A DNA stretch of 64,000 bases, from the NCBI GenBank assembly GCA_016000085.1, contig JAECRT010000001.1, forward strand, positions 62,001-126,000, read 5' to 3'. Both the position numbers and the translations under genes were made by a program. Below are positions 36,455-52,499 of this stretch, piece by piece. How positions within the stretch are numbered: the stretch's first letter is position 1; every line of letters begins with the position of its first letter. The notes beneath the pieces were generated by a model. The model saw nothing but the letters and a program-made list of their open reading frames with translations. It ran no database searches and had not been told where the DNA came from. The stretch is from Sphingomonadaceae bacterium (lineage in GTDB: Bacteria > Pseudomonadota > Alphaproteobacteria > Sphingomonadales > Sphingomonadaceae).

Positions 36455-37534
36455 ATGCTTAGCGAGTCTCAACGGCGGCATTTGTCCGATATCCTTCAGC
36501 CAGCCTCCTCCCCGCGCAAGATCGACAACATCTTCACCGAAGATCAACGCCGCCGGATGCTGGACGTTGTGCATGGCGGCGAATGGAAACTGATCATCGC
36601 CCAGCATTTCGCCAATGCCGAGGAGCTGATCGCAACCTTCGCCGGTGGCTTTCCGGAGGGTTTTCAGCCCACGCTCGATATGTTCCTGACGCCAACCTTT
36701 CGCGGTTTCTTCGCCAACTATTCCGCACTGCTCCATCCCGAACTCCATGACGTCTTCTATAATGAGACGTTTTTGGATCATGCAAAGTCCTACTGGAACG
36801 CCGAATATGCCAAACCGCAAATGATGTTGTTCAACATCAACGGTCCCTGCGGCAACAATGATCCGGGGCATCTGGATTCACCAAGTTTCCGGGGCGTTCG
36901 CTATGAAAATTCACCGACTTGGCTCTGTTCCATCATGGGTCGTTCTGGTCTGTTCCAAGACTATTTGATCAAAATGGCGCAGGTCATCACCTGGTTCAGC
37001 CACGATCCGGCGAGCGGCTTTACCTATTGGCCTAAAGGGCCGCTGGCTAAGCCGGAACGCCTTGCCGCTCCAGTCTATAATCGCGGCGTCGTTGTCCAGA
37101 ATGAGATGATGGTGCATCGCGGGGAAGCCAACGGTGCGGTAGAGCGCCAGCGCCCTGTTGGCCTTGGCTTCGAAAGTATCTTTACGGGTGAAACGGGCGA
37201 TCGCGACGGTTGGGTCGTCAAGACCGATGGTCAGGTAATCGAACGGTATCACACCGATGACTTGCGATTCCTGGTCCATTGGTCCGCCGAAGTGTTCGAG
37301 GATTATACCGAACTAAAGAAAAATATGGATGGGTCGGACAACCTGACCATCGACCGGGTCTTCGAAACCCTCATAAAAGATGTTCGCGCTCGCGGGATTG
37401 AAATAGAGATGCCGACCGATCCGCTGCGCGATCCGGCCTTTATCAATACATTAAGTAGTGCCTATAATTATGGCGGTCCGGCGGAATATCCGGTGGAAGC
37501 ACCGCGCGGCGAGGTCTACGCGGCGGCCGCCTAA
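36455..37534 (+). CDS. Putative non-heme Fe(II)/2-oxoglutarate-type oxygenase, family not recognised
   Basis: GHLD (HxD), downstream NEMMVHRGEANGAVERQRPVG with a second His and an Arg at +10; GFTYWPKG..VYNRGVVVQNEMMVHRG resembles a double-stranded beta-helix; good RBS. Confidence 0.5.
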   Translation: MLSESQRRHLSDILQPASSPRKIDNIFTEDQRRRMLDVVHGGEWKLIIAQHFANAEELIATFAGGFPEGFQPTLDMFLTPTFRGFFANYSALLHPELHDVFYNETFLDHAKSYWNAEYAKPQMMLFNINGPCGNNDPGHLDSPSFRGVRYENSPTWLCSIMGRSGLFQDYLIKMAQVITWFSHDPASGFTYWPKGPLAKPERLAAPVYNRGVVVQNEMMVHRGEANGAVERQRPVGLGFESIFTGETGDRDGWVVKTDGQVIERYHTDDLRFLVHWSAEVFEDYTELKKNMDGSDNLTIDRVFETLIKDVRARGIEIEMPTDPLRDPAFINTLSSAYNYGGPAEYPVEAPRGEVYAAAA

Positions 37535-37609: not shown

Positions 37610-38386
37610 TCAAACCCCGAAGCCACCGGCCACCGAAAGGGTCTGGCCGGTCACATAATTGGCGTCGTTCGACGCCAGAAAAACAGCGGCCTTGCCGATA
37701 TCCTCGGGCTTGCCCCAACGCTTGATCGGCAGCATCGCCTTGACGTTACGTTCCCAATTCTCGTCGAAATAGCCCTCTTTTTGGCCAATTTTGAACTGGC
37801 CCGCGTCTATCACGCCGACGAGGATGGAATTGGCGCGGATCTCATGCACACCTTCTTCCTTGGCGATGCCCTTGATCAGGGATTCATTGCACGCCTTTGG
37901 TGCGACCGACAGGCCGTCCAGATGTGGCCACCAGTCATGGCCGCCCGATCCCAGATGGACAAACGAGCCGCCTCCCTGCTGGCGGAAATGCGGAATGACG
38001 ATGCGCGCCGCATGATAGAAGCCGAACGCCTCGATCTCCATCGACGCGCGAAACTGGTCTAATGCCCAGTCGGCGATGTTGACTTGCGCTACGACCGGTC
38101 CGGCGGCCCAGACTATGCTGTGGACGCGACCATGCGCCTTGACTGCTTCGGCAAAGCCGGTTTCCATCTCTCCGTAATTGCGGACATCAGCTTGATGGAT
38201 TGTTGCGCTGCGGCCGATGGCGCGAATTTCTTCGGCCGCCGCTTCTGCGACCTCCTTCTTGGAGCGGTAGAAGATGGCCACATTCGTGCCTGCTTTCGCA
38301 AATTCGACCGCTACGCCCTTACCGATTCCGCCGCTGCCGCCGAAGATCGCAACCGCGCCTTCTGGAAATGCTCTGTCCATTCTCAT
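37610..38386 (-). CDS. SDR-superfamily protein with SxxxK in place of YxxxK
   Basis: GAVAIFGGSGGIGKGVAVEFAKAG, HGRVHSIVWAAGPVV, GLSVAPKACNESLIKGIAKEEG. Confidence 0.85.
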   Translation of the reverse strand: MRMDRAFPEGAVAIFGGSGGIGKGVAVEFAKAGTNVAIFYRSKKEVAEAAAEEIRAIGRSATIHQADVRNYGEMETGFAEAVKAHGRVHSIVWAAGPVVAQVNIADWALDQFRASMEIEAFGFYHAARIVIPHFRQQGGGSFVHLGSGGHDWWPHLDGLSVAPKACNESLIKGIAKEEGVHEIRANSILVGVIDAGQFKIGQKEGYFDENWERNVKAMLPIKRWGKPEDIGKAAVFLASNDANYVTGQTLSVAGGFGV

Positions 38387-38408
38387 CCTCTCCTATGTGG
38401 TTCAGTAA

Positions 38409-39482
38409 TTATTCGGCCGCCTCGACCAGGCTGGGAGCCGGCGCCATACCGCCAGTATGATGTATGCCGTTGGCACGCGCCTGATAATCTGCGGCCTTGT
38501 CGCGTGGGTTGTAGAATTGCCGATACCAGACCCGGTTGCGATGGAAGGGGCCATCGGTAGGCAGGCGTAATATGTTGAACGCCGGTCCCTTGGTTCTCCA
38601 GATCGCGAAATCCTGGGAAAAGGCGGCGAGGCCTGCGGCGTGATAGGACGATCGCAACTCCATATCCGCCGCGCTAGGCGAAGTGTTACGCGTCCGTGTG
38701 ACGATGCCGTGCCATACCTGCGTCACGCCATCCTCCTTGGGGGTATGGCATATGATCTGGACCGCATCGGTTTCGCCGGAATAGCGGGCTATGAGGATAC
38801 CCGGCCCGGTGTAGAAGGCGTCCACGTCCAGCACACCATCTTCGCTGGTCATGGTTTCATGTCCTCCACCCGATACCTGCCTACCGATCACACCATCGAA
38901 AACGGAATCGAAATAAGCGAGTTTCTGGCCGTGGATCGGCCCGAAATGGTGCGTATCGACCAGATTGTCGATAATCTCCTGCGGGTGGACGTTCAACGTG
39001 CCCAAATCGTCATAATCGCCACAAATCCATTGAGGATCATCCCATTCGGGCAGATCCGGAAGCGCGTGATCCGGTGCGCCGCCTTCCGGATCGTGCCAGG
39101 CAAAGACACAGCCGAAACGCTGCTCGACTGGATAGGCGCGTATCTTGGCCGCAGGTGGAATTGCGCCGTCGAAATAGGGAATATGGTCACAACGACCATC
39201 CGGTCCGAAACGCCAGCTATGATAGGGGCAGCGAATGGAGTCGCCCTCGATCCGGTGGGCGGCCGCTGCGGAAGATTGCTCGGCTGCGAGATGCGCTTGC
39301 ATGTGCGGGCAATAGGCGTCCAGCAACACGATCCTGCCAGATTCGCCACGATAGATGACGAGGTCGCGGCCCAGCATCCGGATAGGTGTAGGGGCGTCTA
39401 TTAAATCGCTCGCCCGCGCCACCATCAGCCAGCCGCGCGGAAATGTGAATTCGCCCAAGCCGTATTCAGCGGTCGTTGCCAT
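38409..39482 (-). CDS. kshA: Rieske [2Fe-2S] oxygenase, KshA-like (3-ketosteroid 9alpha-hydroxylase oxygenase type)
   Basis: Rieske CPH...CPYH, mononuclear iron DNLVDTHHFGPIHG, FPRGWLMVARASDL; start at MATTAEYGLG with upstream GAGAGGAAAT. Confidence 0.78.
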   Translation of the reverse strand: MATTAEYGLGEFTFPRGWLMVARASDLIDAPTPIRMLGRDLVIYRGESGRIVLLDAYCPHMQAHLAAEQSSAAAAHRIEGDSIRCPYHSWRFGPDGRCDHIPYFDGAIPPAAKIRAYPVEQRFGCVFAWHDPEGGAPDHALPDLPEWDDPQWICGDYDDLGTLNVHPQEIIDNLVDTHHFGPIHGQKLAYFDSVFDGVIGRQVSGGGHETMTSEDGVLDVDAFYTGPGILIARYSGETDAVQIICHTPKEDGVTQVWHGIVTRTRNTSPSAADMELRSSYHAAGLAAFSQDFAIWRTKGPAFNILRLPTDGPFHRNRVWYRQFYNPRDKAADYQARANGIHHTGGMAPAPSLVEAAE

Positions 39483-39616
39483 ATTTCCTCTCCCGGCGTG
39501 GTTCTGTCCCGCCATGACATGGAAATGACTGGCCTTTCCTTGCGAAACAACCAACTTTGATGACATCATATCGTTACGTGATACTATTATTTTATTCAAT
39601 GATAGGATTGTGAAAA

Positions 39617-40384
39617 TTGATCAGGACGAGGCGGCCTGGCATCTCTACGGTGCTTTCCGAACTGAGACGGGAGTTGAAGGGGCAGGGGCTTCGTGTGGCC
39701 GATCTTGCCAAGGCCTTGAATGTGGCGGAGCCGACTGTCTGGCGATGGCTTCGAGGAGAGGGGCTGACCCTCGATAGGCTGGACGAAATCTGCGCCTTTG
39801 CGGACATCGACCTGCGTGATCTTCTCGCGCGCCCGGAAAACGAACAAAGGGACAATTTCACCTTGGCACAAGAACGCATATTGGCGGCCGATCGTGGTCT
39901 TGCTCTTGTGTTCTTTGCCATTCTCCACGGCGCGCAGCCTCGAGATATAGAACAGGAATTCGGCCTGCCATCGGATCGGCTCACCAGCCACCTTGACCGG
40001 TTGAAACGCCTTGGGCTGATCGAAAGCTCGACGCGCGGCTATATTCGCCCCCAGGTACGGCGGTCTGTGCGCTGGCGTCGAGGCGGTCCGCTATCGATCG
40101 CCTTCGAGCGCACCGTCAAACCATTGTTCATGTCGATGGATTTGGGATCGCCGACTGCCCGCTACGTGTCCGATATGCTTTCCTTGACCGACGCCGGACA
40201 GGCAAGAGTTCAGGCTTTGTTTGAGGCTTTGCGCGAAGATATTCATGCAATCAGTGCGCAGGAACAGGCTGCGCGGTTGGAAGGGCGGGCGTGGAGCGGC
40301 ATATTAATGATGGTCCGCCCTTTCGATACTACGGAAATGACGTCCGAATGGCGAAACAATGCCGACGATATGCGGGACGCCTGA
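39617..40384 (+). CDS. Transcriptional regulator with N-terminal XRE-like HTH and second winged-helix-like segment
   Basis: LRVADLAKALNVAEPTVWRWLRGEGLTLDRLDEIC and DIEQEFGLPSDRLTSHLDRLKRLGLIESSTRGYI. Confidence 0.78.
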   Translation: MIRTRRPGISTVLSELRRELKGQGLRVADLAKALNVAEPTVWRWLRGEGLTLDRLDEICAFADIDLRDLLARPENEQRDNFTLAQERILAADRGLALVFFAILHGAQPRDIEQEFGLPSDRLTSHLDRLKRLGLIESSTRGYIRPQVRRSVRWRRGGPLSIAFERTVKPLFMSMDLGSPTARYVSDMLSLTDAGQARVQALFEALREDIHAISAQEQAARLEGRAWSGILMMVRPFDTTEMTSEWRNNADDMRDA

Positions 40385-40424
40385 CCAAGCATATCACACA
40401 GAAAATCGAAGAAAGGGTGAGGCG

Positions 40425-41192
40425 TTGGCAACATTTCCGGAAGGGTGCGCTCTGCTATTTGGGGGCAGCGGCGGGATTGGCAGTGGTATATCGCGTGTTT
40501 TCGCAGCGTCAGGCAGCGATATCGCCATCGTGTACCGCAGCAACGAGGCGCGCGCGGAACAGCTTGTGTCAGATGCGTGCGGCATGGGACGCCGGGCAAC
40601 GGCTCATCGAGGGGATGTGGCCGATCCCGACGATGTTCGGGCAGTCGTAAAGGACGCCATAGCCGCTCATGGACGCGTACATAGCGTCATCTGGGCGGCG
40701 GGACCGCTGGTCAACCAGCGTTATCTCTCCTCCACGCCGATGGAGGAATGGCGTCACGCCTTCGATGTCGAGGTGCATGGCTTTCTTGCGGCGGCACAGG
40801 CGAGCATTCCCCATATGCGCGACCAGGGTGGTGGCAGTTTCGTGACGCTGGGATCAGCCGGCCATGACTTGTGGCCATCGCGGGACGGCATGTCGGTAGC
40901 TGTGAAAGCGTCAAATGAACAATTGGTGCGCGGCATCGCCAAGGAAGAGGGGCGCTATGGCATACGCGCCAATTCAGTGCTCGTCGGCGTAATCGATGCG
41001 GGACAATTACATGAACTCACCCGCGAGGGCCAGATCGACCAGCGCTGGGTAGACAATACACATCGGCTGTTATGTCTGAAGCGCTGGGGGACGGCGGAGG
41101 AAATCGGCCATGGGTGTTTGTTCTTCGCCTCCAATGAGGCTGCCTATGTGACGGGCCAGCGTATCTCGGTTTCTGGCGGTTTTGGCGTGTGA
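40425..41192 (+). CDS. SDR-superfamily protein with SxxxK in place of YxxxK (paralogue of 37610-38386)
   Basis: CALLFGGSGGIGSGISRVFAASGSDIAIVYRS, GRVHSVIWAAGPLV, GMSVAVKASNEQLVRGIAKEEG; probable TTG start after GAAAGGGTGAGG. Confidence 0.83.
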   Translation: MATFPEGCALLFGGSGGIGSGISRVFAASGSDIAIVYRSNEARAEQLVSDACGMGRRATAHRGDVADPDDVRAVVKDAIAAHGRVHSVIWAAGPLVNQRYLSSTPMEEWRHAFDVEVHGFLAAAQASIPHMRDQGGGSFVTLGSAGHDLWPSRDGMSVAVKASNEQLVRGIAKEEGRYGIRANSVLVGVIDAGQLHELTREGQIDQRWVDNTHRLLCLKRWGTAEEIGHGCLFFASNEAAYVTGQRISVSGGFGV

Positions 41193-50375: not shown

Positions 50376-52499
50376 TCACAGCGCGCGCGCCACTGTCGCA
50401 GCGCTCCGCATAGCTCCTTCCACAAAGCCGACACCTGCCGCGTCACCGATGATATGTGGGCTAAACCCACTCGCCCGCAATTGTTGGGCGAAACGGTCGT
50501 CGCCGTCCGCGCCCTTGGCTATCAGGACATGATTGGCCTGCCACTCGAGCTTGTTGCCTTCAGCCGAAACGGCGCGGACCGCATCCTTGCTGATCTCGAT
50601 ATCGTAAACCGACGGGAAGAATCTGACGCCGGCATCTTTCAGATCATCGAGAATTCGCCATCGGCGAACAATCTGGAGTCCTCGCCCAAATTTCGCGGCT
50701 TGGTCGATGATCGTCACGTGGCGCCCCCGATGGGCCAGGAATTCCGCGAGTTCGAGTCCGACCAGATCTCCCCCAACGATGACGATCTCCTGGCCGAACG
50801 GCATCCAGCTTTTCGTGGCTGCGCGAACCACCGATGGAACAGTTGTGGCACCGGTCGCAGAGGCAAGCCTTGCCGCCGCCCGGGCGGACCATCCCAGCTT
50901 CTTGCGTCCTGGCGCGGGTGCCTCGCCCAACATCAGGCGCCGCAAATCGTCGCCGTTAAGCACATGCGGCAAGTCGTCTCCGGGAAGTCGGCAGAGATCG
51001 CGACGGGCGCCACTGGCAACCACAACCTCGTCGGCGCCAATCGAGCGTAGCATCTCCACGGTTGCTTCGGTGTTCAGGCGCACATCGATGTCTGTTGTCT
51101 CGACTTCGCGGATCAGCCATTCGAGCAAGTGTTCGTTGGGATCATAGGCGATCGAGGCGAACCGTAACGTGCCCCCAAGGACCGCCGCTCGTTCGATCAG
51201 GGTGACCTTATGACCTCGCAGGCGTGACCGGCGCGCAGCCTCCAGTCCTGCGGGCCCGCCACCGACCACGACGACGTGCTTGGGGCAGGGGGCTGGTTCC
51301 AGCCATGCAGCCTGTTCAAAAGCTGTTTCCGGATTAACCGCACAGCGCACCGAATCTCCGAGATAGATCGCGCTAATGCAGGTGTAACAATAGATGCAAG
51401 GCAATATGCTTTCGGGATCGCCCTTGGCCAACTTGGCCGGGAGATCAGGGTCCGCCAGGATCTTTCGCCCCATCGCGAGGAAGTCGGCCTCCCCGCGCGC
51501 AATGATCCCCTCTGCATTTGCCGGCTCGATCCGTCCCGAAACGATCACCGGCACTGATACTGCTGCCTTGATCGCCGCAGCCTTCGAGATGTTGAGACCT
51601 GGCTCATGAGGGGTGTGCGAGCCGGAGTGGAGCGCGCCGCGCGACGTTTCATGATTGGCCGTGACGGTGATTGCCTGGGCGCCGGCGGCCTCGGCGAGCC
51701 TTGCCGTCTCTAGCGCATGGTGAAGCCGGATACCGCCCTCGCGCTCATATTCCTCGGTGTCGATCTTGCACCAAACCGCGATATCGCCGCCAGCCCCCTC
51801 TCGCACCGCCCGGATGATCTCGACAAGCAGGCGAGACCGGTTTTCGACACTACCACCATATTCATCCTCGCGTCGATTGGTCGCGGGCGATAGAAAGGAG
51901 GAAATGATATAGCCATGCCCCGCATGGATCTCGATCCCATCGACGCCAGCTGCGCGCGCGCGTCTCGCCGCCGCGCCAAACATCGCTACAAGCTCCGCGA
52001 TATCCTCCCGGGTCATGACCTTGTAGCGAACGTCCCGAAGCTGGAAGAACGGGGCGACGGCTGCCTCTTCCTCCAAGAAACCCGCCATCATGTCGCCATC
52101 GATGATGACAGGAAGCGAGGGCGTCCACGCCGGCCGCCCGGCCAGCATGTCCTCCATGGCCACCAGTCCCCCGAAATGGAGCTGAACCGCAAACCGCGCA
52201 CCATGAGCCTGCACGTCGCGGGCGAGCAGTGCCAGACCGGCGATATGCCCGTCTTCGGACAGAGCTGGCTGGCCTTTCATGTTGGAACCGATTGGCCAAC
52301 CAACCCCCACTACGCCCAGCGTCACCAAGCCGATGCCGCCTTCAGCCTGTCGACTGTGGAAAGCCCGCAGACGCTCGCCGCATGTGCCGTCCGCTTCGGC
52401 CAGGCCCGCCCCCATGGCGGTCAGCAGCATACGGTTCCGCAACGTCATTGGTCCAATGCGACCACGCGCGCTGAGATAGTCAAAGCGAGGCGCGGCCAT
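50376..52499 (-). CDS. 2,4-dienoyl-CoA reductase-like FMN/FAD/4Fe-4S oxidoreductase (OYE family, BaiCD/BaiH-like architecture)
   Basis: OYE barrel GIEIHAGHGYIISSFLSPATNRREDEYGGSVENR, Cys cluster CIYCYTCISAIYLGDSVRC, FAD motifs KHVVVVGGGPAGLEAARRSRLRGHKVTLIE and VIVGGDLVGLELAEFLAHRG. Confidence 0.88.
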   Translation of the reverse strand: MAAPRFDYLSARGRIGPMTLRNRMLLTAMGAGLAEADGTCGERLRAFHSRQAEGGIGLVTLGVVGVGWPIGSNMKGQPALSEDGHIAGLALLARDVQAHGARFAVQLHFGGLVAMEDMLAGRPAWTPSLPVIIDGDMMAGFLEEEAAVAPFFQLRDVRYKVMTREDIAELVAMFGAAARRARAAGVDGIEIHAGHGYIISSFLSPATNRREDEYGGSVENRSRLLVEIIRAVREGAGGDIAVWCKIDTEEYEREGGIRLHHALETARLAEAAGAQAITVTANHETSRGALHSGSHTPHEPGLNISKAAAIKAAVSVPVIVSGRIEPANAEGIIARGEADFLAMGRKILADPDLPAKLAKGDPESILPCIYCYTCISAIYLGDSVRCAVNPETAFEQAAWLEPAPCPKHVVVVGGGPAGLEAARRSRLRGHKVTLIERAAVLGGTLRFASIAYDPNEHLLEWLIREVETTDIDVRLNTEATVEMLRSIGADEVVVASGARRDLCRLPGDDLPHVLNGDDLRRLMLGEAPAPGRKKLGWSARAAARLASATGATTVPSVVRAATKSWMPFGQEIVIVGGDLVGLELAEFLAHRGRHVTIIDQAAKFGRGLQIVRRWRILDDLKDAGVRFFPSVYDIEISKDAVRAVSAEGNKLEWQANHVLIAKGADGDDRFAQQLRASGFSPHIIGDAAGVGFVEGAMRSAATVARAL

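Follow-up and report, generated by a model that had tools for sequence, protein, structure and literature searches.

A Tyr-less SDR subfamily with an acid at the tetrad Asn position, represented by two paralogues near a KshA-like Rieske oxygenase gene

Two paralogous SDRs encoded within the window (the whole stretch of 64,000 nucleotides that was analysed) belong to one subfamily in which Ser stands at the position of the catalytic Tyr. Translation confirmed the motifs SVAPK in SDR1 and SVAVK in SDR2 that the initial annotation had read at their YxxxK sites, and placed SDR1 on the minus strand, which had been left unstated. Written out, the motifs are D-G-L-S-V-A-P-K in SDR1, in the context LGSGGHDWWPHLDGLSVAPK, and D-G-M-S-V-A-V-K in SDR2, in the context LGSAGHDLWPSRDGMSVAVK; the two proteins share 52% identity. 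A second change had gone unremarked, as Glu119 stands in for the tetrad Asn in SDR1 and a fixed Asp occupies the position seven residues before the Lys (Lys-7). We use the label SDR-S for the small, well-conserved Tyr-less subfamily of bacterial proteins containing SDR1 and SDR2. Its members carry (Glu/Asp)-Ser-Ser-Lys in place of the Asn-Ser-Tyr-Lys tetrad, together with an invariant Asp at Lys-7. Judged by these residues, SDR1 and SDR2 must either work by an atypical mechanism or have another function. The genes and codons concerned are listed in Table 1.

Table 1. Positions of the genes and active-site codons discussed, in the window unless a locus is given
Feature	Position	Strand	Basis or remark
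SDR1, 258 aa, SVAPK	37610..38386	-	translation; Pfam adh_short_C2 151 bits
SDR1 Glu119 codon	38030..38032	-	tetrad Asn position; homologues Glu 84/89, Asp 5/89
SDR1 Ser147 codon	37946..37948	-	catalytic-Ser position kept; Ser 87/89, Thr 2/89
SDR1 Asp157 codon	37916..37918	-	Lys-7, FabI Tyr156 position; 89/89
SDR1 Ser160 codon	37907..37909	-	Lys-4, catalytic-Tyr position; 89/89
SDR1 Lys164 codon	37895..37897	-	invariant
KshA-like Rieske oxygenase	38409..39599	-	Pfam KshA_C 186 bits, Rieske 65 bits
HTH regulator between SDR arms	39617..40384	+	Pfam HTH_26; divergent from Rieske-SDR1
SDR2, 255 aa, SDR1 paralogue, SVAVK	40425..41192	+	translation
SDR2 Glu116 codon	40770..40772	+	
SDR2 Asp154 codon	40884..40886	+	
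SDR2 Ser157 codon	40893..40895	+	catalytic-Tyr position
SDR2 Lys161 codon	40905..40907	+	
NTF2-like genes	L011:8767-9327, L199:10764-11318, L200:10689-11228		overlap SDR1-orthologue ends

The spacing of the active-site residues puts Ser160 at the Tyr position. Ser147 and Ser160 of SDR1 lie exactly 13 residues apart and Ser160 and Lys164 four apart, which is identical to S138/Y151/K155 of E. coli FabG (numbering of PMC7973133). In a gap-free profile alignment with S. aureus FabG (3osu), S160 lines up with the Tyr and E119 with the Asn of that protein. Both AlphaFold2 models are confident classical SDR folds (pLDDT 93 and pTM 0.91 for SDR1, 95.3 and 0.93 for SDR2), with TM values of 0.86-0.91 for SDR1 against FabG and similar structures, and the Pfam adh_short/adh_short_C2 matches of SDR1 and SDR2 reach 151 and 155 bits. 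In the SDR1 model, the helix spanning residues 158-181 begins right after Asp157; this residue would be a helix N-cap at the least, and may be only that. The start of SDR1 is the ATG at 38386 or two codons further in, and that of SDR2 is the TTG at 40425; an alternative ATG at 40359 would overlap the gene upstream.

To avoid circularity, the active site was left out when the subfamily was delimited, and all open reading frames were scored with profiles restricted to residues 8-112 and 187-258. At scores of at least 150, 89 of 89 distinct sequences carry E/D119, D157, S160 and K164, whereas below this value none of 192 does, a pattern far beyond chance. The Gly-rich motif, the Ser about 13 residues upstream and the Lys had all been described as kept, and this holds across the subfamily, apart from Thr at the Ser position in 2/89: Gly16, Gly19, Gly20 and Gly22 are present in 89/89, with the T of TGxxxGxG replaced by F or V. 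Further invariants are E177-E178-G179 and R184-A185-N186, with E168 in 88/89. At the end of beta-2, Arg41 is present in 74/89 and an acid in none, favoring NADP(H) as the cofactor.

The Tyr loss stands out against the other SDRs of the genome, in which a search gave 38 SDR-like matches. Five more in the window, and about 40 genome-wide with a complete motif, keep YxxxK, as had been stated for the window; the sole exception is FabI, with a normal YNVMGVAK. Other apparent non-Tyr SDRs in this genome were rejected, being one-column alignment shifts. Human DECR1 has Ser at the Tyr position and its catalytic Tyr 11 residues earlier. An alternative of this kind was rejected for SDR-S, as the 89-sequence alignment has no conserved Tyr at the DECR1 position; near-invariant Tyr columns number only two among these sequences, one being Tyr40, where beta-2 ends, and the other Tyr244 of the C-terminal YVTGQ segment. 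The initial annotation had itself named another Tyr at the catalytic position as a finding that would speak against it, and none was seen. Its suggestion of non-classical chemistry is hence supported, with the tetrad Tyr and Asn both gone and no substitute Tyr conserved.

In the trees, SDR-S forms one clade with SH-aLRT of 99-100, whether the active-site columns are included or removed. SDR1 and SDR2 fall into separate sub-clades, indicating that they duplicated after the Tyr had been lost, in one event inherited twice. Two independent, convergent losses are therefore rejected. The earlier argument, which took a change shared by two paralogues as proof of selection, fails on this point, since both inherited it from one ancestor. 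Its conclusion of selected function rather than decay stands on other grounds, namely the invariant residues of 89 sequences and a dN/dS of 0.06-0.12 against orthologues, which indicates purifying selection.

Relatives were found mostly in Sphingomonadales, with Actinobacteria sampled unevenly. A match at E <= 1e-25 occurs in 50 of 401 Sphingomonadales genomes, the weak end including some Y-type and other matches. In a phylum scan of 399 genomes, SDR-S members score at least 334 bits, followed by a drop to 186 bits or less; three of these members lie outside Sphingomonadales. The best matches under the gap have YxxxK, with rare exceptions such as L176, and a second phylum-wide search from another centre covered the same genomes and brought no additions. 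The L176 gene, on the minus strand, encodes an unrelated SDR without the Tyr and Lys of YxxxK (ALAAASRG). Among the hosts of SDR-S members are Sphingobium estronivorans, Croceicoccus estronivorus and the bile-salt degrader Sphingobium sp. Chol11 (L022), in which the SDR-S gene adjoins a Rieske gene.

SDR-S shares with classical SDRs (FabG, 7alpha-HSDH, glucose dehydrogenase) the Rossmann fold, a length of ~255 aa, the Gly-rich motif, the tetrad Ser and Lys, and the C-terminal YVTGQ...GGF. It differs in the change of Tyr to Ser and of Asn to Glu/Asp, in the new invariant Asp at Lys-7, and in (W/A)AAG(P) where classical SDRs have NNAG. By fold, Pfam match and Gly-rich motif it thus belongs with the classical SDRs, whereas the Asn-Ser-Tyr-Lys tetrad of that class is missing. 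No NCBIfam model reached its cut-off, all being missed by a wide margin, and PDB holds no entry near family level (best 181 bits, against at least 273 for SDR-S members). Hence, neither a curated family model nor a solved structure for SDR-S was found in NCBIfam and PDB. Public records name the members 'SDR family oxidoreductase', '3-ketoacyl-ACP reductase' and similar. Fold alone has been the basis for naming thousands of genes 'SDR family oxidoreductase' or FabG, and SDR-S members carry such names though two of the four tetrad residues differ.

Tyr-less SDRs as such are already known, among them SimC7, BcSDR and the PRK07576/DECR-like proteins. In human peroxisomal DECR, acidic residues and water stand in for the Tyr. 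The PRK07576 group resembles SDR-S in having no Tyr at Lys-4 (Val or Ala), an Asp at the Asn position and the Lys kept; at Lys-7 it has Gln, in contrast to the Asp of SDR-S. Its model, NF005752, is the second-best NCBIfam match of SDR1, and membership in this 2,4-dienoyl-CoA-reductase-like group was rejected at 136 bits against a cut-off of 321. One quick tree makes the group sister to SDR-S at SH-aLRT 83 and another sets it apart, while different quick trees put SDR-S beside different Y-type rows; a tree joining the two is not rejected (AU p 0.83). FabI-type divergent SDRs (YxxMxxxK) also lack a Tyr at Lys-4 and have their proposed catalytic side chain at Lys-7, with Tyr156 and Lys163 as the catalytic pair of E. 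coli FabI (PMC10864336). SDR-S, in contrast, has Asp at this position, keeps Ser147 and is classical-type in overall sequence, and FabI-type membership was rejected as YxxMxxxK is absent, Lys-7 being occupied by Asp and Lys-4 by Ser in 89/89.

BcSDR of Burkholderia cenocepacia (LxxxK) shares with SDR-S a classical fold and a clade-conserved replacement of the Tyr, and has a water at the Tyr-OH site (PMC11614110). It differs in having Leu rather than Ser, in keeping its own Asn and Ser as candidate bases, and in lineage. SimC7, likewise an SDR-superfamily member without catalytic Tyr, reduces a ketone by substrate-assisted catalysis (PMC5039031), but has an extended-SDR fold and a Ser-Ile-His triad and has lost the Lys as well. 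Neither the open-access literature searched nor the family libraries contained a conserved D..S...K layout combined with an acid in place of the Asn, and no Tyr-to-Ser SDRs were found in that literature. SDR-S offers a large natural set in which the Tyr is replaced and the replacement fixed, making Tyr-less proton movement directly testable.

The gene surroundings offer a further level of detail. Directly upstream of SDR1, with 22 nt between its stop and the SDR1 ATG, lies the Rieske gene, whose product contains both the Rieske and KshA_C domains and has KshA as its best solved match (4qdc, E 1.5e-45). SDR2, HTH, Rieske and SDR1 genes follow one another in this order also in S. vermicomposti, Sphingobium sp. 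OAS761 and S. herbicidovorans (loci including L002 and L003); in S. quisquiliarum, the SDR2/Rieske/SDR1 arms are the same. Two diverged Rieske kinds pair with the two SDR kinds. The initial annotation had proposed a search for SxxxK homologues near kshA; among 77 members, 21 have a Rieske gene as their immediate upstream neighbor on the same strand, but most members are found elsewhere. Other members adjoin OYE/FadH-type flavoproteins or FAD_binding_2 (KstD-type) enzymes, and a distant sub-clade (L109, L110, L113, L115, L120) sits in a conserved cluster with acyl-CoA dehydrogenase, MaoC and alpha/beta hydrolase. An NTF2-like gene directly follows many SDR1 orthologues, overlapping by about 8 bases, and is absent beside SDR1 in the window. 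From these gene neighbors we infer a role in the catabolism of steroid-like compounds or polycycles. In Sphingomonadaceae, where steroid pathways have known gaps, SDR-S draws attention to an uncharacterised step alongside KshA-like oxygenases.

The reading we favor, tentatively and with somewhat less than even confidence, is that SDR1 and SDR2 are NADP(H)-dependent C=C reductases of steroid-like or polycyclic catabolism that use carboxylate or water protonation. Lys164 and the intact Gly-rich motif would hold NADP(H), and the substrate would be the C=C bond of a conjugated enone or enoyl thioester arising in the breakdown of a steroid-like or polycyclic compound. Hydride would pass to the beta carbon, Ser147 and Ser160 would hold the enolate oxygen, and the proton would come from water or Asp157, polarised by Glu119 and Lys164, in place of the Tyr. 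C=C reduction is favored because SDR enoyl reductases tolerate loss or relocation of the Tyr, as in FabI and in human peroxisomal enoyl-CoA reductase, where Phe takes the place of the Tyr (according to PMC7973133). The enoyl-reductase-type PRK07576 group is also Tyr-less with an acid at the Asn position, and the neighbors include KshA-like Rieske, OYE/FadH-type and KstD-type FAD_binding_2 proteins. The reading is weakened by the disagreement of the quick trees on PRK07576 kinship, by the possible restriction of Asp157 to an N-cap, and by a Rieske adjacency covering 21 of 77 members only. A more detailed version, which we consider doubtful, is a third SDR catalytic layout: the Asp at the FabI-Tyr position and the Glu at the tetrad-Asn position would transfer the proton while Ser-Ser-Lys hold substrate and cofactor, serving a sphingomonad steroid or polycycle step directly after Rieske oxygenation.

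The top sequence and structure matches, being ketoreductases and hydroxysteroid dehydrogenases, also weaken the C=C reading. FabG and 7alpha-hydroxysteroid dehydrogenase are the nearest characterised relatives in both sequence and fold, which agrees with the strongest rival, an ordinary ketone/alcohol oxidoreductase whose substrate would be the product of the Rieske enzyme or some other hydroxylated ring. Here the Tyr would be dispensable, with the proton delivered via water, the substrate itself or a Lys relay. E. coli FabG without Ser, Tyr and Lys is still active (PMC7973133), SimC7 manages ketone reduction without the Tyr (PMC5039031), and a Rieske and SDR pair usually means dehydrogenation of the oxygenated product. 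However, hydroxysteroid and dihydrodiol dehydrogenases retain the Tyr, and the change of Asn to an acid and the invariant Asp157 would be left unexplained. We regard this rival as a distinct but minority possibility.

The two invariant or near-invariant carboxylates lie at positions that in SDRs reach the active site, and could instead form an Asp157/Glu119 acid-base pair in a non-redox or redox-neutral enzyme (isomerase, dehydratase or epimerase), with NAD(P) as cofactor or relic. The NTF2-like gene after many SDR1 orthologues would suit such an enzyme, as steroid isomerases and dehydratases use this fold. The NADP-binding elements and Lys164 are nevertheless fully kept and the recurrent neighbors are redox enzymes, making this reading unlikely. 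Quite unlikely is a catalytically silent SDR, serving the Rieske system or another SDR as a scaffold, a sensor or a partner subunit that binds the cofactor. The two best-known acid-base residues are lost, and diverged SDR-S and Rieske genes are recurrently paired, but most members lie away from Rieske genes, the new residues close to the active site stay invariant over identities of 30-100%, and a silent SDR would have no need to keep Ser147 and Lys164. The whole Gly-rich motif, these two residues and the new invariant acids of the catalytic helix appear to fit an enzyme better than the structural or sensor role considered initially. Decay or a sequencing artefact has nothing in its favor and is refuted by the recurrence of these residues in 89 different sequences, which come from many species and projects, with intact reading frames and a dN/dS of about 0.1.

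Several smaller features were observed at these loci. The window contains a FadH/OYE-type flavoprotein gene (50376-52499, minus strand; BaiCD 376 bits, cut-off 825), homologues of which immediately precede SDR1-type genes in L005, L007 and L031. The cluster of the distant sub-clade also has a glyoxalase-like gene and a gene for an unassigned 150-aa protein. Convergent with SDR1 is an open frame of 359 aa without Pfam or NCBIfam match (36455-37534, plus strand). The true start of the Rieske gene is probably the ATG at 39481, which has a good ribosome-binding site; this start would put the divergent genes about 135 bases apart. The minus strand carries promoter-like hexamers at 39586-39616.
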